DNA of 64,000 bases from Muribaculaceae bacterium (GTDB lineage: Bacteria > Bacteroidota > Bacteroidia > Bacteroidales > Muribaculaceae), in NCBI GenBank assembly GCA_017427945.1, contig JAFRRT010000012.1, positions 124,001 through 188,000 on the forward strand. The letters run 5' to 3'. Made by a program: the position numbers and the translations under genes. A model generated the notes under the pieces. The model did not search any database and had not been told where the DNA came from. It worked only from the letters and a program-made list of their open reading frames with translations. Position 1 is the stretch's first letter, and each line of letters begins with the position of its first letter. This document shows, one piece after another, positions 23,448 through 35,064 of the stretch.

Positions 23448-25907
23448 TTAGTCGAACATTCCTTCAACGGCTTCGTCTTGGCCTCCGCCGCCACCGCCGC
23501 TTTCGCCGGATTCACCTCCGCCGCCACCGCCGTGCCAGCTTCCACCGCCAGAACCGTAGTAGCCGCCCAGTTCATCACCGCAAGCGTTAAAGCCTTTGGG
23601 GAATTCAAACTTGGTGCTCTGCTTGTAGGGCAATGATTTGTCATCATAAATCCACTTCATGAAATAGCCCAGGATAGGCAAAGCAGCCTCGGCACCCTGA
23701 CCCATCGCCATGCTGTTGAAGTGGATGTAGCGCTCTTCACCACCAACCCATACACCAGTGACCAGTTCAGGCGTGAATCCCATGAACCAACCATCGCTGT
23801 GGAAGTTGGTGGTACCGGTCTTACCACCCATGTCGGCAGTGATACCGTAGGCATAACGCAACCTTGCGCCAGTACCGCCATCAACAACCTCAAGAAGCAT
23901 CGAGAGCATTTTCAGGTAAGTGTCCTCACTCATGATCTCGGTCTGGCTGCCGGTAAACTCGGCAATCACGTTGCCTCGGTTATCGGTAATGCGCGAAACA
24001 TAAACCGGCTCCACACGCATACCACCGTTGGCAAATGCCGAGTAAGCTGCTACCATCTCACGCAAGGTAACCTCACAGGCGCCCAGACTCAATGAGGGCA
24101 CGGGGTCAAGATAGCTGGTGATGCCAAAACTGTGCATCCACTTTGCCAACTCATCAGGAGACATCGTGTAGTAGCCATTGCGCTCAATCCAGTTCTCACG
24201 AGTGCCACGCATGAAACCTGCCGAAATCCAGTTCTTTGAGTACTTCAACGCGTTACGCAGGTCCATTCCACCGCCACTACCCTCGTTCTGGGGGTTGTAC
24301 ACCTCGTTGTGCCAAATGATGTTGGGAGCGCCACCGGGACGAGTTGAGCAAGGAGTCAATCCACCGAACTCGATAGCCTGGGAATAAACGAAGGGTTTTA
24401 CTGTAGAACCAATCTGACGGCGGCCCGTCGATACCATGTCATACTTGAAGAAACGGAAGTTAGGACCTCCCACATAGGCCTTCACAAAGCCCGTGACAGG
24501 GTCCATCGACATCATTGAACAACGCAGGAACGACTTGGTGTAAAGCAACGAGTCGAGGGGCGACATCTGGGCGTCAAAACCACCTTCGTAGTTGAACAGA
24601 TGCATCTGAACCGGCTTCTTGAAGTTATCCATGATTTCGGCATCACTCAGGCCCTGATTCTTGAGCACACGGTAACGCTCGCTATGACGGATAGCAGCAT
24701 TGATGAGCGCCTGCTTGCCTGCGCTTGAAAGCTCATTCTTGTTATTAGTGTAAGGATTCTTGGTTCCACCGCGCTCACGCAAGAAGGCAGGCTGCAGCGT
24801 TTTACTCATGTGCTTATGCACCGCCTTCTCGGCATACTCCTGCATGCGAGAGTCGATGGTGGTGTAAATCTTCAGACCATCGGTATAAATGTCGTAATGC
24901 GATCCGTCGGGCTTGGTATTCTTGTTGCACCAGCCATACAGGGGGTTCACTGCCCAAGCCACCGAGTCATCGATGAATGCCTGCTGGTTCCATGACGGGT
25001 AATCGCTGCGTTTAGGCTTCTTGGCGCTCATCACGCGGCGCAACTCCTCGCGGAAGTAAGGTGCAGGACCGTCGTTGTGGTCAAGTTTCTTGAATTTCAC
25101 CACAAGGGGCGTTTCCTTCAACTGGTTGCACTCGGCCTCGCTCAGGTAACCCGCTTTCACCATCTGCTCAAAGACGACATTGCGGCGCTGGCGCGTGCGC
25201 TCGGCATGGCGCACGGGATTGTAATAAGACGGGTTCTTACACATTCCCACCAATGTGGCTGCCTCCTGGATGTTCAAGTCCTTGGGGTCCTTATCGAAAT
25301 ATACCTCAGACGCCATCTTGATACCCACTGCGTTGTTCAAGAAGTCGAACTGGTTGAAGTACATCTTGATGATTTCGTCCTTGGTGTAATAGCGTTCCAG
25401 CTTCACGGCAATCACCCACTCCACCGGCTTCTTCAAAGCACGCTCAAAGATGTTGTGGGACTCGGGAGAGTACAACTGCTTCGCCAGCTGCTGGGTGATG
25501 GTACTACCACCACCGGCACTCTTCTGGCCCATGATGATGCGCTTGATGATGGCACGCCCGAGTGCTTTGATATCGATGCCCGAATGCTCATCAAATCGAG
25601 AGTCCTCGGTAGCAATCAGAGCATCGGTCAAGTGGGGCGACATCTCGTCAAAGTCCACATAGATGCGGTTGCTGCGACTGCGATAGTAGCGGCCCATCTC
25701 CACGCCGTCGGCACTGTAAATCGTCGAAGCGAACTTATCAGTAGGATTCTTCAACTGGTCGATGGGCGGCATATAGCCAATCACACCATTGTAAATCAAC
25801 ACAAACAGCAGTACCAGCAATGCCACAAAAATGGCAAAACACGTCCACATCTTGCGAACGATGCTGCGACGCTTGTTTTTCTTCTTTCCAGTAGTTTTAT
25901 TGCTCAT
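23448..25907 (-). CDS. Class A penicillin-binding protein 1A with glycine-rich tail
   Basis: This 819-residue bifunctional murein synthase has a cytoplasmic basic start (residues 1-18) and a transmembrane helix (21-40). The GT51 glycosyltransferase domain has catalytic Glu101 in EDSRFDEHSGID, then GGSTITQQLAKQL. The transpeptidase domain has SxxK at Ser501 (GSTVKPF), the SxN motif in YSKNW and KTGTT. The C-terminal 40 residues are almost all Gly/Ser with a few acidic residues. It polymerises and cross-links peptidoglycan in the periplasm. Only 42 bases and no visible promoter separate it from the SUMF1 gene upstream, so it may be the last gene of the kinase operon. Confidence 0.92.
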   Translation of the reverse strand: MSNKTTGKKKNKRRSIVRKMWTCFAIFVALLVLLFVLIYNGVIGYMPPIDQLKNPTDKFASTIYSADGVEMGRYYRSRSNRIYVDFDEMSPHLTDALIATEDSRFDEHSGIDIKALGRAIIKRIIMGQKSAGGGSTITQQLAKQLYSPESHNIFERALKKPVEWVIAVKLERYYTKDEIIKMYFNQFDFLNNAVGIKMASEVYFDKDPKDLNIQEAATLVGMCKNPSYYNPVRHAERTRQRRNVVFEQMVKAGYLSEAECNQLKETPLVVKFKKLDHNDGPAPYFREELRRVMSAKKPKRSDYPSWNQQAFIDDSVAWAVNPLYGWCNKNTKPDGSHYDIYTDGLKIYTTIDSRMQEYAEKAVHKHMSKTLQPAFLRERGGTKNPYTNNKNELSSAGKQALINAAIRHSERYRVLKNQGLSDAEIMDNFKKPVQMHLFNYEGGFDAQMSPLDSLLYTKSFLRCSMMSMDPVTGFVKAYVGGPNFRFFKYDMVSTGRRQIGSTVKPFVYSQAIEFGGLTPCSTRPGGAPNIIWHNEVYNPQNEGSGGGMDLRNALKYSKNWISAGFMRGTRENWIERNGYYTMSPDELAKWMHSFGITSYLDPVPSLSLGACEVTLREMVAAYSAFANGGMRVEPVYVSRITDNRGNVIAEFTGSQTEIMSEDTYLKMLSMLLEVVDGGTGARLRYAYGITADMGGKTGTTNFHSDGWFMGFTPELVTGVWVGGEERYIHFNSMAMGQGAEAALPILGYFMKWIYDDKSLPYKQSTKFEFPKGFNACGDELGGYYGSGGGSWHGGGGGGESGESGGGGGGQDEAVEGMFD
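23462..23580 (-). repeat. Glycine-rich low-complexity tail of PBP1A
   Basis: GGN-rich sequence encodes G4-G6 runs broken by Ser-Trp-His and Glu-Ser. It is not part of the transpeptidase fold. Confidence 0.75.
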
Positions 25908-25949: not shown

Positions 25950-27272
25950 CTAAAACGCCAAACGGAAGCCGTAAGAGCCTGAACCTGAATTATTGAAGAG
26001 CCTGAACACACAACAATCCTCGGGATAGCCATAGCCACCACCGCGAACGACATGTAAGCCATTATACTCTTCGCCCTTGGGATTCACCAACGGAGCGCTG
26101 CTCTCATTAATTCCGGGCCAATACCACCACCAGTCGCCGCACCATTCAGGCACGCCACCGGTCATGTCATAGAGACCTAATTCGTTGGGCTCCTTAGTGC
26201 CCACATCATGATAGACGCCATCATAGTTCTCGGAGTACCATGCAACCTCGTCAATGTCATTGCTTCCCGAGAAGACATAGCCATGTGTTTTGGCGCCACC
26301 TCGCGCCGCATATTCCCATTCGGCATCAGTCGGCAGGCGGAAGTTCTTTCCGGTCAACTGGTTCAGTTTTGCGATAAACTCTTGGCACTGGTCCCAGTTA
26401 GCCTCATCAAATGGAAATTGAGGGCCAAATTCTACCGTGCTGTCGGCCATGACGGCATACCACAATTCGCAAGTCACTTCATAGGCTCCGATATAATAAC
26501 CCGACAACGTCACCTTGTGGGGCGACGGCAATCCAGAGCGCACATTACCCTTCACAACCGACTCGATGTTATCAGGTATTTTGTATCGGGTATAAGTTCC
26601 GCCCGGGACATATACCATGACAATGGGTATCGTGTCTTTTACCATAATCGTCTCGTTGGGCAGGTCCATTGATTCAACCGGTGCCACTTGTTCAATAGGT
26701 AGTTGCTGTGGTTCAACTAATTGCTGAGTCGGCTGAGGTTTGAAGGAAAGATCAGTTAATTCTGATTTGTCATCATCATCCTGTTCATCTGATGGAGAAG
26801 TATCCCAGTCATCAAATGAATCTAAATCATCATAAGACATCTCCTCCAAGTTAAAATAGTATATGTGACTGTCCTCGCTCTCAGTGATGGTAATGAGAGA
26901 GTCAACACCATCAAATCCATCAGCCTCGACTTCAGCCACGTGCGAACCTTCTTTCAGTATATAGGTTGAGTTAGCGTCACCCATCTCCACATCGTCAATC
27001 GTCAAAATGGCGCCATACACATTACACTGAAATATCACCTCAAAATCCCGTGCGTTGGGTTTTGGAGCTGGTTTATATTTGCGGACATCATAGGATTCTC
27101 TTTTTTTCTTATGATGCCTCCAGTTGTCTTTGTTTGCCTTTGGCTTTGGTTTCTCCTTAGGCTTCTCGGTCTTGGTCACCGTAGGCTTGGCAACCGTTGG
27201 TGACTGAGCTAAAGCCTGTGGTGTCATCACAAACAAAGCAAATGCGAATAATATGATCAAGTACTTTTTCAT
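25950..27272 (-). CDS. Exported PEGA-SUMF1 (FGE-like) protein 1
   Basis: This 440-residue protein has a signal peptide (MKKYLIILFAFALFVM, cleavage near ALAQ). A Lys/Pro-rich stretch (about 25-70), a PEGA-like beta domain (about 76-145, DFEVIFQCNVYGAILTIDD), an acidic/Gln-Pro linker and a SUMF1/FGE-like domain (about 220-440, FRLPTDAEWEYAARGG, GLYDMTGGVPEWC) follow. The copper-site region reads RGGGYGYPEDCCVFR: the first of the two FGE cysteines is replaced, so formylglycine formation is unlikely. Its ATG overlaps the previous gene by 4 bases. It probably acts in the periplasm or at the wall as a binding or scaffold module. Confidence 0.82.
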   Translation of the reverse strand: MKKYLIILFAFALFVMTPQALAQSPTVAKPTVTKTEKPKEKPKPKANKDNWRHHKKKRESYDVRKYKPAPKPNARDFEVIFQCNVYGAILTIDDVEMGDANSTYILKEGSHVAEVEADGFDGVDSLITITESEDSHIYYFNLEEMSYDDLDSFDDWDTSPSDEQDDDDKSELTDLSFKPQPTQQLVEPQQLPIEQVAPVESMDLPNETIMVKDTIPIVMVYVPGGTYTRYKIPDNIESVVKGNVRSGLPSPHKVTLSGYYIGAYEVTCELWYAVMADSTVEFGPQFPFDEANWDQCQEFIAKLNQLTGKNFRLPTDAEWEYAARGGAKTHGYVFSGSNDIDEVAWYSENYDGVYHDVGTKEPNELGLYDMTGGVPEWCGDWWWYWPGINESSAPLVNPKGEEYNGLHVVRGGGYGYPEDCCVFRLFNNSGSGSYGFRLAF

Positions 27273-28435
27273 TTCTTAGTACGTTTGGGTTGCATTGAAG
27301 TAGCGGCAAGCCTTAGTCCTATGGACTGGCTGATATCGTCGGGGGAGACAGGATTGCGATAGGTCACGGTGCAATGAGTGGCAGCACTTTCCCAGAATCC
27401 GCCACGAGTCACACGGTACTCACCGGTCTTGGGACCAGTGGGATTCTTCTGGGCACCATTCTTGTAATGGCCATGCCAGTCGGAACACCACTCCGACACA
27501 TTTCCTGACATATCATAAAGTCCAAGCTCGTTCGGAGCCTTGTAGCCCACCAGGTGTGAAGCCTCGTCAAAGTTGTTATACCATGCCACCAGGTCGAGAC
27601 TGTCACTTCCAGCATATTTATAGCCATGGGTACTGCTACCGCCACGTGCGGCATATTCCCATTCGGCCTCGGTCGGTAAGCGGAACTTGATTCCTGTCAA
27701 GGTATTAAGTTTGTTGATGAACGTCTGACAGTCCTGCCAAGATACCGACTCCACTGGATTGTAATCTCCTATATTCTCACTTGGGTTATCGTCCATGACT
27801 TCTTGCCAGAGCTCTTGCGTCACCTCATACTTGCAAATGTAGAAAGATGTCACAGTCACATCGTGGGCAGGTTGTTCATCGTATTCTCCACTTTCATCAG
27901 AACCCATCTTGAAGGTTCCTCCCGTGACAAAAACCATGTCCTCTAACAAGGACTGAATGGCTGCCGATTCCAGCTTCTTGAGCTTGAACGGGAATGACTT
28001 CTTGGATGCCGAGACATTCACTTTACCGACATACTCATCGTAACCCTCAGCCACGATGCGCACCTCGTGCGAACCGGAGTGAAGAGTATATGTACCGTTG
28101 GCATTACCTATGAACGTGTTATCGATGTAAAGATCACCGTCAGGCGCATTGCAAGTGAATACCACCTCATGTTCAGTGGAAGAATTAGAGGCGTTTGCAG
28201 CCGTGCTGCCACTGCCCGATGCGCTGTTTGAGGAGGTGGAACGAGTGGTGGAAGTCCGTTTCTTGGATGATTTGGACGATGAAGATGATTTTGTTGTCTT
28301 CTTGGTGGTAGTGGTCTTGGTCGTTTGGGTCGATGACATACGGGGCTTGGCCACCTGTGCAGCCTGGCCAAACGCCGTTGCCGTGCACAAGAGCATGAAT
28401 ACTATCGAAACCAATATGCCAAGATGTTTCTTCAT
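27269..28435 (-). CDS. Exported PEGA-SUMF1 (FGE-like) protein 2
   Basis: This 388-residue paralogue of the next gene has a signal peptide (cleavage near TAFGQ, residue 24). A Ser/Thr/Lys-rich low-complexity segment (about 34-88), a PEGA-like domain (about 90-155, HEVVFTCNAPDGDLYIDN) and a SUMF1/FGE-like domain (165-380, FRLPTEAEWEYAARGG, LYDMSGNVSEWCSDW) follow. The C-terminal site is RGGFWESAATHCTVTYR, again lacking the first FGE cysteine but keeping the second. It starts 2 bases after the kinase stop and overlaps the next gene by 4 bases (ATGA). The Ser/Thr-rich linker is exported, so it is an unlikely kinase target. Confidence 0.82.
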   Translation of the reverse strand: MKKHLGILVSIVFMLLCTATAFGQAAQVAKPRMSSTQTTKTTTTKKTTKSSSSSKSSKKRTSTTRSTSSNSASGSGSTAANASNSSTEHEVVFTCNAPDGDLYIDNTFIGNANGTYTLHSGSHEVRIVAEGYDEYVGKVNVSASKKSFPFKLKKLESAAIQSLLEDMVFVTGGTFKMGSDESGEYDEQPAHDVTVTSFYICKYEVTQELWQEVMDDNPSENIGDYNPVESVSWQDCQTFINKLNTLTGIKFRLPTEAEWEYAARGGSSTHGYKYAGSDSLDLVAWYNNFDEASHLVGYKAPNELGLYDMSGNVSEWCSDWHGHYKNGAQKNPTGPKTGEYRVTRGGFWESAATHCTVTYRNPVSPDDISQSIGLRLAATSMQPKRTKK

Positions 28436-28437
28436 CG

Positions 28438-29958
28438 TTATTTATTATGCATCACACCACGTTTCATATCAGGAACCCATGCGTTATTCTGCTTGTCAAA
28501 GATATAGAATCCCTCGAAATAGGACCCGTCCTTCCAAGTGTAACGTCCATGGTGAACATGATTGTTCTTATAAGTGCCTACGAAGACGTCTCCATTGCCG
28601 TAGGTGTAAACAATGCTGTCGCCCTCAACATTGCCATTGACAAAAGTGCCCTCGCACTTGTCGGGAGTTTTGATAAACTTAGCAACGCCTTTACCCTCGG
28701 GCATTCCGGCAGCATTCACAGGACCTGTATATTTACAAGGTCCCAAAGGAATCTCCAACAGCTGATTACTCACTTGGGTGATAGCGACGGAATCTGTCTG
28801 TTCGGCCAGCGTTTCCTGTTTATCCTTGGAGCCGGAACCTCCATTGATGAGGAAGTAACCACAAACGGCGAGCAACAAGCCAGCGCAAGCGGCAACAATA
28901 ATCGCCTTCTTGGTTTTCTTGGTGTTCTTTGCAGCTTCCTCGTCGTCTTCCTGATTGATGTCTTGAATAATCTCAACTGAACGTTGCTGCGGCATTTCGG
29001 GTTCATTGAGGTCTATCAAGGTGGCCTCTGAATCATGGTTAGCAATCAGTTCCGAACCGCTCAAGAAGTCCATGATCTCCTGAACCGACTGGGGGCGCTC
29101 CTTGCGGTTGGTCTTCATCAGCCACAAGAGCACGTCCCTCATCTGTTTGCTCACCTTTGAAGGCAGGGGCAGTGACAGATGCTTGTCAGGGGTGCGGTCA
29201 TCATTGATATCGCTGGGCATGGGCGGCTTCTGGTTGGCGATCACGTTATAGAGCGTAGCGCCCAGAGCATAGAAGTCGGTCCAAGGTCCCAATTTCTCGT
29301 AGCTCTTTTCCATCTGCTCGATGGGTGCAAAGCCGTTGGTATAGGTGACAGAAGATGTGGACAAGGCGCCACCGGTCTTGCTGTTGAACTGCTTGCTGGC
29401 TCCGAAGTCGATGAGCTTTACCGTGCCGTCATTTTCCATCATGACGTTAGCGGGCTTGAGGTCAAGATGCCAAATGCCCTTGGAATGTACCTCCTGCAAC
29501 GCGTCAAGCACCTGCCTGAGGATGTCGCCAGCCTCGGCTTCAGAGACGGGCTTCTTGGTCCTTTTGAGTCTCTCCTTCAGATTCTCGCCATTAATGTAGT
29601 CCATGACATAGTAGGCGGTACCGTTCTCATCGAAGAGGTCATACACCCTGACAATGTGGGGATTGTTGAGCTGGCGTAACCTTCTTGCCTCTTTCTTGAA
29701 TTTCTCGAGTTGCTCGTTGAACTCCGTCACCTTCTCGTTATTGCTCACACTTACGGCGGTGTTGTTGCCGTCACGCTCATTTACGCCCTTCATGAAGAAC
29801 TCCTTGATGGCGTATTTCTCATTGAAATTGATGTGCGTGGCAACATAAGTGTTACCAAAACCGCCGCTCGACAGGTAGCTGTCAATGCGATAGGTGCCAT
29901 GCAGTACGGTGCCCACTTTGAGCATCGATTCCACATTTATGTTATTCTGGTTAGACAT
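28438..29958 (-). CDS. Transmembrane Ser/Thr protein kinase with extracytoplasmic MORN repeats
   Basis: This 506-residue protein has an N-terminal Hanks-type kinase domain (about 22-300). The glycine loop is LSSGGFGNTY, the ATP lysine is Lys52 in YAIKEFF, the catalytic loop is WHLDLKPAN (Asp166, Lys168, Asn171) and DFG is at 184-186. The usual HRD is HLD, a non-RD kinase. A transmembrane helix (about 347-370) follows an acidic linker. The outer part holds MORN-like repeats (GPVNAAGMPEGKGVAKF, VGTYKNNHVHHGRYTW). It should phosphorylate Ser/Thr in the cytoplasm, perhaps in response to an envelope signal. It sits between the PP2C gene and the SUMF1 pair. Confidence 0.9.
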   Translation of the reverse strand: MSNQNNINVESMLKVGTVLHGTYRIDSYLSSGGFGNTYVATHINFNEKYAIKEFFMKGVNERDGNNTAVSVSNNEKVTEFNEQLEKFKKEARRLRQLNNPHIVRVYDLFDENGTAYYVMDYINGENLKERLKRTKKPVSEAEAGDILRQVLDALQEVHSKGIWHLDLKPANVMMENDGTVKLIDFGASKQFNSKTGGALSTSSVTYTNGFAPIEQMEKSYEKLGPWTDFYALGATLYNVIANQKPPMPSDINDDRTPDKHLSLPLPSKVSKQMRDVLLWLMKTNRKERPQSVQEIMDFLSGSELIANHDSEATLIDLNEPEMPQQRSVEIIQDINQEDDEEAAKNTKKTKKAIIVAACAGLLLAVCGYFLINGGSGSKDKQETLAEQTDSVAITQVSNQLLEIPLGPCKYTGPVNAAGMPEGKGVAKFIKTPDKCEGTFVNGNVEGDSIVYTYGNGDVFVGTYKNNHVHHGRYTWKDGSYFEGFYIFDKQNNAWVPDMKRGVMHNK

Positions 29959-29990
29959 AATAGTTATATCTGTATGGTTTCTTAGGGTTT

Positions 29991-31253
29991 CTATTCTTTA
30001 TCGTCATCTGAGGCCTGTGCTTGGGCAGACTCATTGCTCTCAGCCTGCTCTTGACGTTTGGCTGCTACACTACGGTTATGGGCTTTGATGGCCTCGGCTG
30101 CAACATGGGCCCGTGATGAGTTGTGTGGTTTTGCCTGAGGCACCTCGGGATGAGCGATAGGCTCAACCGGCAAGGCTTCCTCGACAGTTTTTTCCACCGT
30201 CTGTTTGGCAGCCGGGTGTTTTGAGTTGCCCGTCCAGGCATAGAGTGTCAACCATGCCGCTATCGCTACAATTGCAGCTATGAGCAGTGCCCACCATATC
30301 CATGCAAACGACTTCTTGCCGCCATCGCTGCTGGATGATTTCGTCTTCACAGGCGAGTGAGAGATTTTGGTGATGTCGTCTTCCTCTTCGGTTTCATCAT
30401 CCGGCTCAATCTCCACGTTCTTAACCTGTTTCATGTTCAAGGCATTGCAGCGTGCCGTTTCCTCCTCGTTCACTGTGATTCTTGCATCTGCTGCATCTTT
30501 TTTCACGTCTTCGATGCGTATCAGGTAAGCACTGTGGTTATCCTGATTGCCCGATGTCGCGGCAATGAGTTTATTAAGTTTCTTCTCATCACTGCCTCTG
30601 CCTGAAAGCAAGCTGAAGAGTTCTTCATCATCCATCTCCTCGAGCATGCCGTCGCTGCACATATAGAAATAATCGCCCGACTTGATGTCGGTGATGTGGA
30701 TGACATCAGGCTTGACACGGTTGTCCTCACCAGGCTGTACGGCACGTGTGATGACATTCTTTTGCTGCGATGTCTTGATCTCCCCAAATGATATCTCCCC
30801 GCTCTGGTACAAGTCATAAACCAGGGAATGGTCACGGCTGATATAGAGGATTCTCTTGCCGGGCCTCAGGTGATAGATGCGGCTGTCACCAATGTGTGCC
30901 GCCATCACGCCGCCCTTGTGGAAATAGAGCAGCGTAAGGGTCGTACCCATTTTCTTGTAGTTCCCGTCGTCCTTTGCATCGAGTTTGCTGTAGGCAAAAG
31001 CGATGGCATCATTGAGCCATGCATCTTGCATGTATCCATCGGCAGGGACATTCATTCTGAAGTACTCAGCCAGGGCAGAGGCGAAAGTCTCACTTGCAAC
31101 TTCGCCTTTCTCATGCCCACCCATACCGTCGCAGACGATGAACAAGCGGTCATCGACCGTTGCAAGGCCCTTGACGGGATAGATGAAGTCTTCCTGGTTG
31201 TCACGAGCACCCAGCTCATGAATCGCCAACGGAGGATATATCTTGAGTTCCAT
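29991..31253 (-). CDS. Membrane-anchored PP2C-type Ser/Thr protein phosphatase
   Basis: This 420-residue protein has an N-terminal PP2C domain (1-250) with metal-binding motifs RDNQED (17-22), CDGMGGHEKGE (41-51), HIGDSRIY, MCSDGM and QDNHSAYL. An acidic linker, a transmembrane helix (about 318-345, WIWWALLIAAIVAIAAWLTLY) and an Ala/Gln/Ser-rich outer tail follow. It should reverse phosphorylation by the kinase encoded next, 32 bases downstream. Kinase and phosphatase share the same topology: catalytic part inside, tail outside. Confidence 0.92.
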   Translation of the reverse strand: MELKIYPPLAIHELGARDNQEDFIYPVKGLATVDDRLFIVCDGMGGHEKGEVASETFASALAEYFRMNVPADGYMQDAWLNDAIAFAYSKLDAKDDGNYKKMGTTLTLLYFHKGGVMAAHIGDSRIYHLRPGKRILYISRDHSLVYDLYQSGEISFGEIKTSQQKNVITRAVQPGEDNRVKPDVIHITDIKSGDYFYMCSDGMLEEMDDEELFSLLSGRGSDEKKLNKLIAATSGNQDNHSAYLIRIEDVKKDAADARITVNEEETARCNALNMKQVKNVEIEPDDETEEEDDITKISHSPVKTKSSSSDGGKKSFAWIWWALLIAAIVAIAAWLTLYAWTGNSKHPAAKQTVEKTVEEALPVEPIAHPEVPQAKPHNSSRAHVAAEAIKAHNRSVAAKRQEQAESNESAQAQASDDDKE

Positions 31254-31268
31254 TTCGATTAATGATTA

Positions 31269-31799
31269 TTATTTGATGTGGAAAGCCATGATTGTACTTC
31301 CCATCTGTATCGTGTCACCATCGTGCAGAACAATGGCATCTCCTGATTGCAACAGCAAATCATTCACACGGGTAGAATTCTTGTTCTTGTAGTTGCTGAC
31401 ATCCACCTTAATGCCACCATCAGGCAAACGACGCACATTGATGACCATGTGCTCACGGCTCATGAACTTGTCATCGGTTTCAACCTGCACATCGGCATTT
31501 GACGTGCTGGCCTTGCGGCCAACGACATTGCGGCCGATGGGCAACGGGTAGTCCTTGCCGTTACAGGTGAGGTGACAAGATTCCTGCATGTTGGCGTTCC
31601 CAATCTGTGTGGCCTGTGCTACGGGGTTACCATCGAGCTGTGTCTCTCCATCCTCGACCCTGAGCCTGTAAAATGGCACCACGATTCGCTTGCCGCACTT
31701 GGGGCATGAGAAATGCTTCTCAGCCTCATTCTTTGAGTTGGTCACCCTCAAGACTACGCCGCATGACGGGCACTTGATATTAATTGTTTGTGGTAACAT
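31269..31799 (-). CDS. Zinc-ribbon plus FHA-domain protein
   Basis: This 176-residue soluble protein starts with a four-cysteine zinc ribbon (Cys10, Cys13, Cys32, Cys35). A short linker with Thr-Gln motifs (ETQLDG, ATQIG) precedes a C-terminal FHA domain (about 85-174) with GR at 94-95, SREH at 114-117 and the Asn-Ser-Thr/Val-Asn pair near 141-146. FHA domains bind phosphothreonine, so this is a likely reader of the kinase. The linker threonines could be phosphorylated, giving intramolecular binding as in GarA/OdhI; this is inference. The start overlaps the end of the caspase-like gene by 20 bases. Confidence 0.88.
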   Translation of the reverse strand: MLPQTINIKCPSCGVVLRVTNSKNEAEKHFSCPKCGKRIVVPFYRLRVEDGETQLDGNPVAQATQIGNANMQESCHLTCNGKDYPLPIGRNVVGRKASTSNADVQVETDDKFMSREHMVINVRRLPDGGIKVDVSNYKNKNSTRVNDLLLQSGDAIVLHDGDTIQMGSTIMAFHIK

Positions 31800-32577
31800 T
31801 TATCTTACTTTTAGTGTTATGTTTCTTGTCATTTTTGTCCTGCCAATTGACGACCGGGCTATTACCGTCAAAGCCGCCCCACATCACCGGGTGGTGGGTA
31901 CTGCCGAAACGATCGTCGTTTATCACGCCGTTGTGGACAAAATCATAGAGCTCCCTCAGTGTGATGATCTGATCCCTGTTGGCATCGGCACCGCCACGAA
32001 GTCCTCGCTCTAGATACATCGTGAACAGGCTGTTGCTATACCACGTCTCGCGCGAGACCTCATTGGCACGCGACGAGAGAAAGAGAACGACATCCTCGGC
32101 ATTGGAGAATGCCTGTCTCCATACAGTATCATTGCGCATAATGCCCGAAAAACAGGCATCGGCTACAATCATTTTGGTTTTGGCTTTGCACTTGCCCATC
32201 TCCTCGGCAATCGCGCTATTGGTGAGAAGCCCATCATAGCACAGTAGGCCTTTCTCGGTGCCATGGCCGCTGAAGTAAAAGATGATTACATCATTGCTCT
32301 TGGCCGTGCAAAACCTGTATTTCATAGCCCGCAACACCGCTTTACAGGTTGCGGCGCTGTCGGTCAGCAGCGATGTGCTGAAACCGGTGGCGGCAAAGAC
32401 CTGCTTCATCACCTTGGCGTCATTGACACTGACACGCAGTTTTGAAGGCCTGTAATTGGCTACCTCATAGGGGTAGTCGTTCAAGCCCACGCACAAGGCA
32501 TAGCTGCGTGCTGACATCTGCCGTGGAATCGCGGCAAACATCAGGAACAGTATCATAAAGATGGTGAAGCGTCGCAT
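31780..32577 (-). CDS. Exported caspase-like (peptidase C14/metacaspase family) protein
   Basis: This 265-residue protein has an N-terminal signal peptide or anchor (FTIFMILFLMFAAIP, possible cleavage near residue 23) and then a caspase-hemoglobinase fold. YALCVGLNDYP opens the first strand, the catalytic His is His105 in YFSGHGTEKG and the catalytic Cys is Cys142 in IVADACFSG. A second hydrophobic motif (VVLFLSSRANEVSRE) follows the small-subunit position. It should cleave after Arg/Lys or Asp; the specificity is unknown. It overlaps the FHA gene by 20 bases. An exported caspase in a kinase/phosphatase operon is unusual. Confidence 0.85.
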   Translation of the reverse strand: MRRFTIFMILFLMFAAIPRQMSARSYALCVGLNDYPYEVANYRPSKLRVSVNDAKVMKQVFAATGFSTSLLTDSAATCKAVLRAMKYRFCTAKSNDVIIFYFSGHGTEKGLLCYDGLLTNSAIAEEMGKCKAKTKMIVADACFSGIMRNDTVWRQAFSNAEDVVLFLSSRANEVSRETWYSNSLFTMYLERGLRGGADANRDQIITLRELYDFVHNGVINDDRFGSTHHPVMWGGFDGNSPVVNWQDKNDKKHNTKSKINVTTNN

Positions 32578-32600
32578 AATAAATTCTTTCTTTGACCGGT

Positions 32601-33890
32601 TTAGAGTTGTGCTAACGCATCGTCCATATAATCGGGCATGTCATCGGCGACATCAGGATTGGGCGTCATCGGGTGGTTGTCATCGTTCATCTGATTGAGA
32701 GCGAAATCCTGAAGTTCACCATATGTGGACTGGTTGCCGTTACCCTCTTCCATGATGATATCTTCCCTCGACAAGTCGCCCGAATCGTCAACATCAATCA
32801 CAGCGATGTCAACTACGTCGTCACCGTCCAGATCAAGACCTCTCACTACGTGCCCGTCAAATTCGCCATAACCTACGATGCGCACCGAGTCATCAGAAAG
32901 GAAGTTCTCGAACGAAGCATCCTGGGCTCGCACGTCATCAAGGTTACCGCCCTTGGTGGCAGCAGCATTCATGGCAACCTCTTCGCCAGGCTGCAGTGAG
33001 AACATCTCGGCCAGCCTGATATCGTCATCTTCAGCAAAAGCGATATCCTGCACATCATCTTCGGCATCGGCAATAGCGACATCGGGATCAGCTTCGGGAA
33101 GTTCAGCGATGGCTACACCTTCGTCGGTAACATCAGCAATCGCAATGTCCTCGTTTTCCTCATACATGGGCGTCGCAGCAATCGCAATATCCTCGTTGAT
33201 TTTGTCTAAGGAAGCTTCATCAATGGCGATGTCCTCATTCATCTCCTGTACAGGGGTCTCCTCAAAGGCCATGTCAGCGGCTACTTCAACATCATCGGCG
33301 ACAACAGCCTCATTTACATCATCGGCAGCCAGGAGTTCATCTTGAACGATATCATCAACATCAGGCTCGGGCTCGTCGTATTGAGCGATCTGAGACTGAA
33401 TCTCCTCGGCAGTGATATCTTTAGCCTCCACTTCGGGACGTACCTGCTGGGAGAATGACTCGTGCTGGTCCTCGGTCATCGTCTCCCACTCGTCGGCAGT
33501 ATAGGTGCTGAAAATGACACCTCTCCAGTAGAACACGCCACCGGCACCCACTTGCTCGCGGGCCGATACAAAGGCCTCGTCAAAGGGCAATGCATCATCA
33601 ACCGATGCGATTCTCAAAGCAGGGGCGTTCTCCTCGGGTTCAACGACTTGTTCAGCGACAGGTGTTTCCTGTACATTGACTTTATCATCGGCTGGCAGGA
33701 CGTCGTCCTCGACACCGCTTTCCATATCGATGTGGGTAGCCAGAATGGCACCAGTACCAATCACGATGCCCGTTAAGCTGCCAATGGAGACAGGCTTCCA
33801 AGCTTTGGACATCACTTCCTTGAACGCACGTTCTTTATCGGTGTTACCCTCAAGGCCGTTACCCATGTAGATTGTTTCTTCGTTAATCAT
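32601..33890 (-). CDS. Acidic single-pass membrane protein with EDIAI-type repeats
   Basis: This 429-residue protein is of no family I recognise. A short cytoplasmic N terminus (INEETIYMGNGLEG) precedes a transmembrane helix (about 34-52, VSIGSLTGIVIGTGAILAT). A long very acidic region follows, with at least six (E)DIAIA-like repeats (about 217-300). Near the C terminus DLDGDDVVDIAVIDVDDSGD looks like tandem EF-hand-type calcium loops. Thr6 in an EET context resembles phosphothreonine sites read by FHA domains, so this may be a kinase substrate; that is inference. It is the first gene after the promoter at 33933-33964 and heads the caspase-FHA-PP2C-kinase operon. Confidence 0.8.
   Translation of the reverse strand: MINEETIYMGNGLEGNTDKERAFKEVMSKAWKPVSIGSLTGIVIGTGAILATHIDMESGVEDDVLPADDKVNVQETPVAEQVVEPEENAPALRIASVDDALPFDEAFVSAREQVGAGGVFYWRGVIFSTYTADEWETMTEDQHESFSQQVRPEVEAKDITAEEIQSQIAQYDEPEPDVDDIVQDELLAADDVNEAVVADDVEVAADMAFEETPVQEMNEDIAIDEASLDKINEDIAIAATPMYEENEDIAIADVTDEGVAIAELPEADPDVAIADAEDDVQDIAFAEDDDIRLAEMFSLQPGEEVAMNAAATKGGNLDDVRAQDASFENFLSDDSVRIVGYGEFDGHVVRGLDLDGDDVVDIAVIDVDDSGDLSREDIIMEEGNGNQSTYGELQDFALNQMNDDNHPMTPNPDVADDMPDYMDDALAQL
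33000..33245 (-). repeat. Degenerate repeat coding NEDIAIA-type units
   Basis: The units NEDIAIDEA, NEDIAIAAT, NEDIAIADV, EGVAIAEL, PDVAIADA and QDIAFAED are spaced 10-17 residues apart. DNA copies have diverged. Confidence 0.7.
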
Positions 33891-33932
33891 AATCGTTAAG
33901 TTTTAATGCAGTTAGTATTTGTTTTGACACTG

Positions 33933-33964
33933 CAAAATTATATTACCGTTATCCCGCCTTCCAA
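33933..33964 (-). promoter_or_regulatory. Promoter for the acidic protein-caspase-FHA-PP2C-kinase operon
   Basis: On minus TTG (33964-33962), 21 bases, then TAATTTTG (33940-33933). It makes the large operon independent of the upstream FHA-LytTR unit. Confidence 0.65.
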
Positions 33965-34010
33965 ACATTTTTAAGCCTATTGGACAAAATGGTGGGATTA
34001 ATGTATGAAA

Positions 34011-34691
34011 TTATTTTATATACCTCGCTTTACAGCCGGGGCAGTTGTTGTTCTGCAGCAACAGGTCATAATCGATAGTGCCCAGAAAGCGTCCGCACTT
34101 GGGGCAGACATAATCGCGCTGGAACTGCTTTTTCAATCGTTCCTGTTTGTCAATGGCCCTGTCGGTAGCCTGCCGATAGAAACCGTAAGCCATGATGAGC
34201 AACGCTATCACGGTAAAGGTAATCGAGTAAGGCCTGATGGACTCGCTCAAGGCAATCAGCAAACCGCCCAGCATCGTCAGGAAGATGGGAATCCTCGACA
34301 GCAGGTTGTTCATCTGCTGCCTCTTCCTGATGGCGATGGTGGCCTTGCTGTAATCCTCCCACACCTGTTTGAGAGGTTTGATGTCAACCAGGTTGGGCTT
34401 CATCTGCTCCAGGATTTCCTCCAGCGGGAGGTCAAAGCGGCTTTGTCCCAACTGGATTTTATCGTCCTTGGTGATTCTCTTGCTCTGGACCTCGACGCCG
34501 TTAACCCAAGTGACATTGGCCGACTTGATGTTCCTAATGACAAATGTGTTGTCATTGATTGCCGTGAGCTGGCAATGCTGCCTGCTCACATCACTGGGCA
34601 CACTAGCCGCTTCACCAAAGAGCGTCACCTGTGTATCATTCACGACCTTGAGTTTGGCGGTAGCGCCATCTCTGCCAATAATGAGTTCCAT
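34011..34691 (-). CDS. FHA-domain membrane protein with C-terminal zinc ribbon
   Basis: This 226-residue protein has an N-terminal FHA domain (1-95) with GR at 6-7, SRQH at 36-39 and Asn54/Asn64. Two transmembrane helices (about 130-175, IPIFLTMLGGLLIALSES and ITFTVIALLIMAYGFY) follow, then a C-terminal zinc ribbon (Cys196, Cys199, Cys217, Cys220). Both soluble ends should face the cytoplasm. It would bring phosphothreonine partners to the membrane. It is the mirror image of the other FHA protein (ribbon first, FHA last). The LytTR gene lies 4 bases upstream, so they form one unit. Confidence 0.85.
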   Translation of the reverse strand: MELIIGRDGATAKLKVVNDTQVTLFGEAASVPSDVSRQHCQLTAINDNTFVIRNIKSANVTWVNGVEVQSKRITKDDKIQLGQSRFDLPLEEILEQMKPNLVDIKPLKQVWEDYSKATIAIRKRQQMNNLLSRIPIFLTMLGGLLIALSESIRPYSITFTVIALLIMAYGFYRQATDRAIDKQERLKKQFQRDYVCPKCGRFLGTIDYDLLLQNNNCPGCKARYIK

Positions 34692-34695
34692 CAGT

Positions 34696-35064
34696 TTAAA
34701 TTTTGATTTTCACCATCATCTCCTTAAGGGTCTTCAATGCCTCCTTGGAAATGTCGAGCTGGTACGAAAAATTCATAAAGTCAGTCAGCACCAATTGTTT
34801 CTTGAGCGGATTGACTTTATAGATATAATCGAGATTGACGATGTACTTCTTGCCAATGCGGGCAAAGAGGTTTCGCTTTTCCTTGTTGAGCCGCTGGGCC
34901 AACATGTCCTCCATCTGGCCAAGGTTCATGCACACAGCGCTCTTTAGCTTGTTGCATGTGACAATGTAAGTGTAATTGCCGTCGGCCTCGAAATAGACAA
35001 TGCGTGGAACGTCGATGCGCAGCATCTCGTCCCTCGAGTTAAAAATCAGTCGTTGACTATCCAT
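34696..35064 (-). CDS. Stand-alone LytTR DNA-binding protein
   Basis: This 122-residue protein is nearly all LytTR domain. It shows RIVYFEADGNYTYIVT, a central helix (QMEDMLAQRL) and LFARIGKKYIVNLDYIYKV. LytTR proteins usually carry a receiver domain; here there is none, so activity must be controlled otherwise. It is the first gene of a two-gene unit with the FHA membrane protein and probably regulates the signalling locus. Confidence 0.88.
   Translation of the reverse strand: MDSQRLIFNSRDEMLRIDVPRIVYFEADGNYTYIVTCNKLKSAVCMNLGQMEDMLAQRLNKEKRNLFARIGKKYIVNLDYIYKVNPLKKQLVLTDFMNFSYQLDISKEALKTLKEMMVKIKI

Follow-up and report, generated by a model that had tools for sequence, protein, structure and literature searches.

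A recurring LytTR, FHA, PP2C and Ser/Thr kinase gene module in Bacteroidota as a candidate phospho-signalling system, with a caspase as frequent add-on

Nine adjacent open reading frames (ORFs) on the minus strand of a Muribaculaceae genome belong, as comparison of many genomes supports well, to a conserved module that recurs across many genera. They lie at positions 25950-35064 of a 64,000-nucleotide stretch of contig JAFRRT010000012.1 (assembly GCA_017427945.1, positions 124,001 to 188,000 of the forward strand), which as a whole is called the window here. In gene order they encode a LytTR regulator, a membrane protein with a forkhead-associated (FHA) domain, an acidic membrane protein, a caspase-fold protease, a soluble zinc-ribbon FHA protein (znFHA), a PP2C phosphatase, a Hanks-type Ser/Thr kinase and two PEGA-SUMF1 proteins. 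A preliminary description, made from the letters of the window, had taken all nine for a candidate undescribed phospho-signalling system. Its candidate status is supported because the set recurs across genera, the catalytic motifs are kept and no description was found; as in other kinase/PP2C/FHA phospho-signalling loci, writer, eraser and reader genes stand together. The outline of the system had to be redrawn, with the SUMF1 pair outside the core and the caspase optional. To judge from gene neighbourhoods, the signalling core is the FHA-membrane protein, the acidic protein, znFHA, PP2C and kinase, usually with LytTR, to which the caspase is a frequent add-on. It is proposed, with about an even chance of being right, that kinase, PP2C and FHA proteins form a circuit controlling a LytTR switch, and through it an envelope regulon that would include a periplasmic caspase. 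The parts are of known kinds; their combination and wiring look new.

Conservation was followed in two surveys. For the first, the best 80 of at least 393 caspase relatives from a caspase profile scan of species genomes were taken, so that the counts describe the nearest caspase subfamily; many contigs break off within the locus. The 80 loci come from Prevotella, Bacteroides, Muribaculaceae, Butyricimonas, Tannerella and others and, further out, from Cytophagales (Runella, Persicitalea, Rhabdobacter) and Saprospiraceae. The znFHA gene is present in 64 of them, those of PP2C and the FHA-membrane protein in 61 each, the kinase in 59 and LytTR in 50; the acidic gene is found in 53, or in 62 when searched with a profile. 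Both znFHA and PP2C occur in 60 loci (58 of 78 without near-duplicates), all five core genes in 38 and none of the five in 7. Adjacent same-strand pairs at most 300 bases apart are formed by znFHA and PP2C in 58 loci, with znFHA directly before PP2C, by the acidic and caspase genes in 41 and by caspase and znFHA in 41. LytTR and FHA genes are adjacent on the same strand in 44 of the 80; of the 50 loci with LytTR, 44 have it immediately ahead of the FHA-membrane gene. Beyond the module families, none of the clusters is shared by over 10 of the 80 loci, the Tss families of type VI secretion, whose threonine-phosphorylation pathway is PpkA/Fha/PppA, not having been searched for.

The second survey covered 119 genomes of the family, scanned with the window caspase. 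Matches, many of them weak, came from 43; 41 of the 54 match rows other than the window's own (40 regions) were analysed and 13 weak rows dropped. With the window proteins as queries, the recurring order is LytTR, FHA, (acidic), caspase, znFHA, PP2C and kinase(s). Both znFHA and PP2C were found in 17 of the 32 regions with higher-scoring caspases, and no core partner (of five) in 6; among eight control regions with other, low-scoring caspases, none has znFHA or PP2C. One control region (L066) carries a LytTR-kinase-SUMF1-FHA cluster several kilobases from the caspase, another (L069) a weak kinase match. Neighbourhood analysis, which the preliminary description had suggested as the test of its proposal, did not find the genes rarely together; the set recurs across many genera. 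The same link appears from the side of the phosphatase. PP2C matches in the 119 genomes form two groups, 34 above 150 bits (module-type) and 61 below 100 bits. A same-strand caspase lies within 15 kb of 18 of the 34 module-type PP2Cs (a raw count of 19, less one weak opposite-strand match) and an acidic gene near 17 of them, while the weaker PP2Cs have a caspase within 15 kb in 0 of 36 cases and one weak acidic match. Conversely, a module-type PP2C lies at most 15 kb from 19 of the 33 family caspases that score above 70 bits. The rows compared were 37 caspases (weaker rows left out, and two pieces of one match in genome G012 entered together with an approximate score), 31 of 34 acidic proteins, all 34 module-type PP2Cs and 36 of the 61 weaker ones. 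A SUMF1 match of either kind occurs in only 18 of the 80 loci (SUMF1a-type in 16, SUMF1b-type in 4), so the pair is regarded as peripheral.

At the head of the window locus stand the genes of a stand-alone LytTR DNA-binding regulator without receiver domain (34696-35064, minus strand, 122 amino acids, PF04397 48.8 bits) and of the FHA-membrane protein (34011-34691, minus strand, 226 amino acids), which, from Pfam and hydropathy, has a C-terminal zinc ribbon and is proposed as the membrane partner of LytTR. Between the FHA-membrane and acidic genes lies ATTTCATACATTAATCCCACC-ATTTTGTCCAATA, whose two halves resemble each other and are 21 bp apart; a promoter that follows the general Bacteroidetes consensus comes next. 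The direct repeat (ATTTCATACATTAAT / ATTTTGTCCAATA, 33976-34011, minus strand) is a putative LytTR operator. In the promoter (33931-33965, minus strand), TTTGG stands near -33 at 33965 and TATAATTTTG near -7 at 33942-33933; with its -7 box at 33942-33931, the promoter suits the transcript start at 33933 that had been predicted earlier. In the whole 2.77-Mb genome, a pattern built from the window site and its relatives finds four operator-like sites, with 0, 1, 1 and 2 mismatches. The narrowed pattern TTTCATACATTAAT-N12-TCCAAT returns the same four at zero mismatch, by construction, because it was drawn from the positions that they share; the informative part of this search is that no fifth site exists in this genome within three mismatches. 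The reversed pattern matches nowhere. Of the other three sites, two stand before genes of outer-membrane beta-barrels (PF13505, 43.0 and 48.1 bits) and one before the gene of a protein that has a signal-like N-terminus and no family; in every case a promoter of this type comes after the repeat. The three genes, regulon candidates outside the window, are at L187 5091-5780, L192 3878-4669 and L193 3319-4545. Allowing two mismatches, the 119 family genomes contain eight sites in 5 genomes, including the four just described. One each lies directly before the acidic gene in genomes G052 and G027; in G060, of the window's genus (L202 2550-4527), a site with 2 mismatches precedes a DegP/HtrA-like gene (Trypsin_2 128.4 bits, with PDZ domains) by about 390 bases. 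Between the two is a short membrane-peptide-like ORF of, by eye, about 25 codons. A site in G034 falls inside a coding frame and was treated as chance. The reversed pattern gave one match (G019) in all 119 genomes.

The repeat is also seen when no model of it is used. Requiring at least 10 of 12 identical bases, a test independent of the position weight matrix (PWM) described below found 14 of 77 distinct acidic upstream regions to repeat at lag 21, while none of 35 other lags gave more than 2. No such excess at lag 21 was present upstream of LytTR (1/72), FHA (1/81), caspase (2/123), znFHA (2/99) or PP2C genes (0/99); kinase upstream regions gave 7 of 148 at lag 21, yet also 6 at lag 24. Half-sites of the form TT[TC][CGT][AG]T, a pattern drawn from sites already seen, pair 28 times at spacing 21 and at most 6 times at each of twelve other spacings in 647 upstream regions. 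A PWM trained on seven sites, and therefore favouring loci near these, scores at least 14 bits in 24 and at least 10 bits in 31 of 79 non-training acidic upstream regions, which include a few near-duplicates; elsewhere 5 of 692 match, before four kinase genes and one caspase gene of module loci. The base at position 7 of the half-site follows the type of LytTR: it is, by eye, C in all 6 rows (5 loci) with a LytTR of 81-98 bits and in 0 of 10 rows with one of at least 110 bits, a further 12 rows having no LytTR in the locus. Such covariation is expected if LytTR binds the repeat. As an operator, the 21-bp-period direct repeat is well supported by these comparisons; that LytTR would bind it, and activate rather than repress, is what we infer from its place and form.

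The arrangement recalls the LytTR Regulatory Systems (LRS) HdrRM and BrsRM, for which passages of PMC6193735 describe a pair of 9-bp repeats, separated in most cases by 12 bp, that lies directly ahead of the -35 region and adjoins a LytTR/membrane-protein gene pair, and call the signals unknown. As in these accounts, a stand-alone LytTR gene is followed by that of a membrane protein, and direct repeats with a 21-bp period and a gap of about 12 bp lie just upstream of a promoter. Unlike the LRS described there, the module has a membrane partner with FHA domain and zinc ribbon, and its repeat controls, by position, a second operon (FHA, PP2C, kinase, caspase) and not LytTR's own promoter; for the latter reason, LRS membership is not claimed. 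LytTR and the adjoining FHA-membrane protein are best read as a regulator paired with its membrane partner, for which an operator and a regulon can be detected, and it is proposed that their switch would work like an LRS with a partner of FHA type.

The first gene behind the putative operator encodes the acidic single-pass membrane protein (32601-33890, minus strand, 429 amino acids). Judged from the ORF, hydropathy, alignments and an AlphaFold model, it has a predicted cytosolic N-terminal tail of about 30 residues, a transmembrane segment at 34-52, two folded ectodomain segments and an acidic linker. It had been taken for a generic acidic repeat protein; it is instead a conserved, previously unnamed family of the module core. 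No Pfam family reaches the cut-off in the window protein, nor was a Pfam domain found in 105 of the 106 clusters obtained when the 8000 closest candidates were scored; the four clusters with a source name are called hypothetical or uncharacterized. The AlphaFold model is confident only at about residues 91-150 and 341-400 and gave no informative fold match. Arg111 is invariant in 20 aligned acidic proteins. The tail is variable apart from one motif around Thr6 (EETI; an acidic context, then Ile or Val). Thr6 itself is conserved in at least 90% of 61 acidic proteins. In its strict form the motif occurs in 29 of 58 acidic proteins, compared with 10 of 645 unlabelled ORFs, 6 of 50 LytTR proteins and 6 of 103 kinases from these loci; acidic proteins without it mostly have close variants, such as DEATQ or NEETR. 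A looser form, widened after the misses had been seen, occurs in 47 of 58 against 33 of 645 unlabelled ORFs. Since a kinase, a phosphatase and two FHA readers are encoded next to it, the natural reading is that Thr6 is a phosphosite and FHA ligand, which is considered likely.

The predicted writer of this mark is the Ser/Thr kinase (28438-29958, minus strand, 506 amino acids, Pkinase 154.5 bits). Across the surveyed loci, motifs of the HxD type are kept in 90 and of the DFG type in 99 of 100 kinases. The part behind its transmembrane segment (353-371) is MORN-like, with an E value of 0.095 in the window and 2.6e-7 in a close relative (L074). At three loci (L077, L087, L089), three to five kinase genes of differing length stand in a row, which could mean that several sensors feed one phosphatase and one reader pair. 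The PP2C phosphatase (29991-31253, minus strand, 420 amino acids, PP2C_2 44.2 bits) has one predicted transmembrane segment (319-337) and a predicted periplasmic tail; its motif columns are invariant in 21 aligned sequences, the 17 solved chains that it matches include Stp1, PstP and PppA, and it scores 172 bits, below the cut-off of 230, with the Stp1-type model. For both enzymes, catalytic parts inside and tails outside had been proposed, and hydropathy agrees in giving a single segment each, their orientation being predicted. The two FHA proteins, with Pfam FHA scores of 45.1 and 37.6 bits, both have zinc-ribbon-like CxxC pairs of weak Pfam score. In the first, the membrane segment appears by eye as a hairpin, which would leave FHA domain and zinc ribbon cytosolic; the second, znFHA (31269-31799, minus strand, 176 amino acids), is soluble.

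In Actinobacteria, the PknA/B-PstP-FhaA/B-RodA-PbpA locus likewise unites a Hanks kinase, a PP2C and two FHA proteins. A role of the window module in cell-wall growth control, with peptidoglycan synthesis tuned and the penicillin-binding protein PBP1A as target, could be read from this likeness and from the PBP1A gene (23448-25907), which follows the module on the same strand after 42 bases; PBP1 genes are near the module at L107 and L102 as well. These are, however, just 2 of the 80 loci (RodA was not searched for), no obvious wall-synthesis gene lies behind any of the four predicted promoters, and PASTA families are absent from the Pfam scans of the window kinase, for which the PASTA-kinase equivalog model gives 162.3 bits against a cut-off of 450. 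Unlike the actinobacterial locus, the module also adds LytTR, the acidic membrane protein and the caspase. Cell-wall control is hence regarded as quite improbable.

The caspase-fold protease (31780-32577, minus strand, 265 amino acids, Peptidase_C14 68.9 bits) keeps the catalytic His105 and Cys142 invariant in 48 aligned sequences; Asp140 precedes the catalytic Cys. In the alignment its C-terminal part shows an EF-hand-like loop, D-x-N-x-D-x-x-I-T-x-x-E, and a conserved end of the QHPVxWG type. A caspase outside this set (L043, 1260-1988) has DAT for DAC, so that the catalytic Cys is gone, and is possibly an inactive homologue. By sequence the best solved relatives are Geobacter GSU0716 (3bij) and metacaspases, which share the catalytic His/Cys core and differ from the window protein in its signal-like N-terminus, the loop and the end. 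With the NCBIfam model caspase_w_EACC1 the window caspase scores 63.8 bits, under the cut-off of 140. A hydrophobic, signal-like N-terminus is present in 79 of the 80 loci, and export to the periplasm, as already assumed in the preliminary description, would follow from it. The exception is a PP2C-caspase fusion. In Runella aurantiaca (L136, 9140-10705), a single ORF comprises a PP2C (residues 14-208) and a caspase (289-511), and among the matches listed (120 of 636) at least 12 protein clusters have this form, with 49-93% identity over at least 99% of the length. The tested PP2C motif is kept in 11 and the caspase His and Cys motifs in all 12 of these clusters. All 12 have a hydrophobic stretch between the two domains (best 17-residue mean hydropathy 1.24-2.19; in L136 it is under the 19-residue cut-off used for other membrane segments), which fits a cytosolic phosphatase and a periplasmic caspase. 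On a 76-kb plasmid of Runella rosea (NZ_CP030851.1; L211, 1-15772), FHA, acidic homologue, FHA, PP2C and caspase are separate neighbours; a VWA-domain gene stands before them, with OmpA-family, PD40 and SUMF1 genes close by. L136 may also be plasmid-borne because a Rep3 initiator gene is nearby. MORN repeats, the type seen in the window kinase tail, occur on many caspase matches listed in the fusion search, and a Saprospiraceae caspase (L149) is fused to 8 stretches of them.

Bacterial caspases have been described as effectors of conflict systems (PMC7159879, PMC8195603), and the module too might be considered a system of anti-phage defence or programmed cell death in which the caspase kills, in view of the Runella rosea plasmid and of the generic PADLOC models that kinase, caspase and PP2C match; with PADLOC and NCBIfam, only such generic kinase, caspase and phosphatase models match. 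The caspase-fold protein is, as passages of the same two papers report for conflict systems and EACC1-associated caspases, operonic with signalling domains. It is set apart from them by its signal-like N-terminus, found in nearly all loci as noted, and an NTPase core was not found; Pfam and NCBIfam scans of the nine window proteins gave no NTPase or nuclease family. No match was found among 50,697 phage records, and the caspase-bearing locus stands beside groEL both in the window and in three loci from metagenome-assembled genomes (L072-L074), whose GroEL is 97% identical to that of the window. In these the order is groEL, LytTR, FHA, acidic, caspase, znFHA, PP2C, kinase and then SUMF1 (one gene in L072 and L073, two in L074). 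An anti-phage or cell-death function thus appears very improbable.

The proposed mechanism would start from the membrane kinases, whose periplasmic tails, MORN-like in the window, may sense the envelope. The kinase would phosphorylate the conserved N-terminal Thr of the acidic protein, and the two FHA proteins would read the phosphorylated mark; binding by the FHA-membrane protein would free its partner LytTR. LytTR would then bind the 21-bp-period repeat and activate the operon of acidic, caspase, znFHA, PP2C, kinase and SUMF1 genes, in a positive feedback, as well as three other envelope genes, while PP2C would reset the Thr mark. The caspase, induced in response, would be a regulated periplasmic protease with a presumed substrate there. 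What the sequences show are the genes and their conservation, the PP2C-caspase fusion, the Thr motif and the operator with its four copies in the genome; the steps that connect them are proposed. In this full form, in which the kinase marks the acidic Thr, the membrane FHA protein releases the LytTR activator and feedback loads the periplasm with caspase, the scheme is tentative and its chance is put somewhat below even.

Several observations weigh against it. For 14 of the family's 33 caspases scoring above 70 bits, the contig shows no module-type PP2C within 15 kb, and caspase-free modules with the same core exist (L172 and, elsewhere in the order, L152, L153, L165 and L166), so the caspase is not closely tied to the signalling. 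Among the latter, L172 (7918-9722; genome G095, of the window's genus) has the same order, its acidic gene lying 125 bases from that of znFHA. Only 37 of 61 FHA-membrane proteins show a simple SxxH-type FHA pattern, compared with 56 of 65 znFHA proteins. For the operator, 48 of the 79 non-training acidic upstream regions stay below 10 bits in the PWM, and the covariation of half-site and LytTR type could be confounded by shared ancestry. The repeat is also missing from LytTR's own promoter, to judge from the four sites of the genome and from the LytTR upstream regions, and may belong to another regulator, with LytTR and phospho-circuit mere neighbours; LytTR genes, too, are present in 53 of the 119 family genomes, more than have the site. 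Yet the repeat sits between the LytTR-FHA pair and the operon, its half-site bases follow the LytTR type, and its spacing is that reported for LytTR operators in passages of PMC6193735, so another regulator is considered unlikely.

The comparison of G095 with the window offers a natural case of gain or loss of the caspase. It bears on a further explanation, in which the signal runs from outside to inside: the periplasmic caspase would be the sensor and, by cleaving the ectodomain of the acidic protein, the kinase or PP2C, for example after the invariant Arg111 of the acidic protein, would start or stop the cytosolic phospho-signal. The fusion, a single chain that joins protease and phosphatase and apparently spans the membrane, would suit this, as would the adjacency of acidic and caspase genes in about half of the 80 loci. 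In having Asp140 before the catalytic Cys, the caspase also resembles metacaspases specific for Arg or Lys. The core persists without the caspase, however, even in the same-genus L172 with its otherwise unchanged order, and Arg111 is kept also where no caspase is nearby and may be structural. A protease-triggered signal is therefore considered fairly unlikely, next to the phosphorylation-gated LytTR switch preferred here.

The remaining features of the window complete the picture of the locus. The nine ORFs, their positions and their overlaps (20 bases between caspase and FHA genes, 4 between the SUMF1 genes) are those of the preliminary description, and Pfam supports each of its domain calls, from LytTR and the two FHA domains to PP2C, kinase, caspase and PEGA-SUMF1. 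Added to it are the zinc ribbons of the FHA proteins, the MORN-like kinase tail and the operator at 33976-34011. Hydropathy gives a single membrane segment each for the first FHA protein, the acidic protein, PP2C and kinase, and signal-like N-terminal segments for the caspase and both SUMF1 proteins, in line with the export that had been assumed for these. The peripheral PEGA-SUMF1 proteins (27269-28435, 388 amino acids, and 25950-27272, 440 amino acids, both minus strand) score 158.5 and 85.7 bits with FGE-sulfatase and 33.4 and 24.0 bits with PEGA; by eye, each keeps Cys at one of the two active-site positions of formylglycine-generating enzymes. Upstream of the locus lies groEL.

Among systems already described, cyanobacterial kinases and orthocaspases carry C-type-lectin domains targeted by diversity-generating retroelements, according to passages of PMC7517822. 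The module is similar in bringing kinases and caspases together with lectin-fold ligand-binding parts; the cyanobacterial proteins are described there as mostly predicted cytosolic and multidomain, whereas the module is an operon with PP2C, FHA and LytTR. No description of the gene set was found in the titles, abstracts and passages searched, and a co-mention of LytTR with "forkhead-associated" is absent from the literature searched, a result that covers this full term and not the abbreviation FHA.

Summarizing, the module is a genetic unit that is concrete and recurs, and for which a phosphosite, its readers, an operator and a regulon of four promoters are predicted. It is testable in named, cultured strains that carry it: Bacteroides caecigallinarum ET21 (L092), Prevotellamassilia timonensis (L132), Prevotella sp. 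P5-108 (L128), Runella aurantiaca (L136) and Runella rosea (plasmid NZ_CP030851.1). The PP2C-caspase fusion provides a ready entry point for biochemistry. To our knowledge, Ser/Thr phospho-signalling has been little explored in gut Bacteroidota, and what their caspases do is for the most part not understood. The module suggests that LytTR/membrane-protein switches can be wired to kinases through FHA domains. If the proposed mechanism is true, it would represent a bacterial caspase pathway that operates across the inner membrane, and Bacteroidota would have a new class of one-step link from Ser/Thr phosphorylation to transcription.

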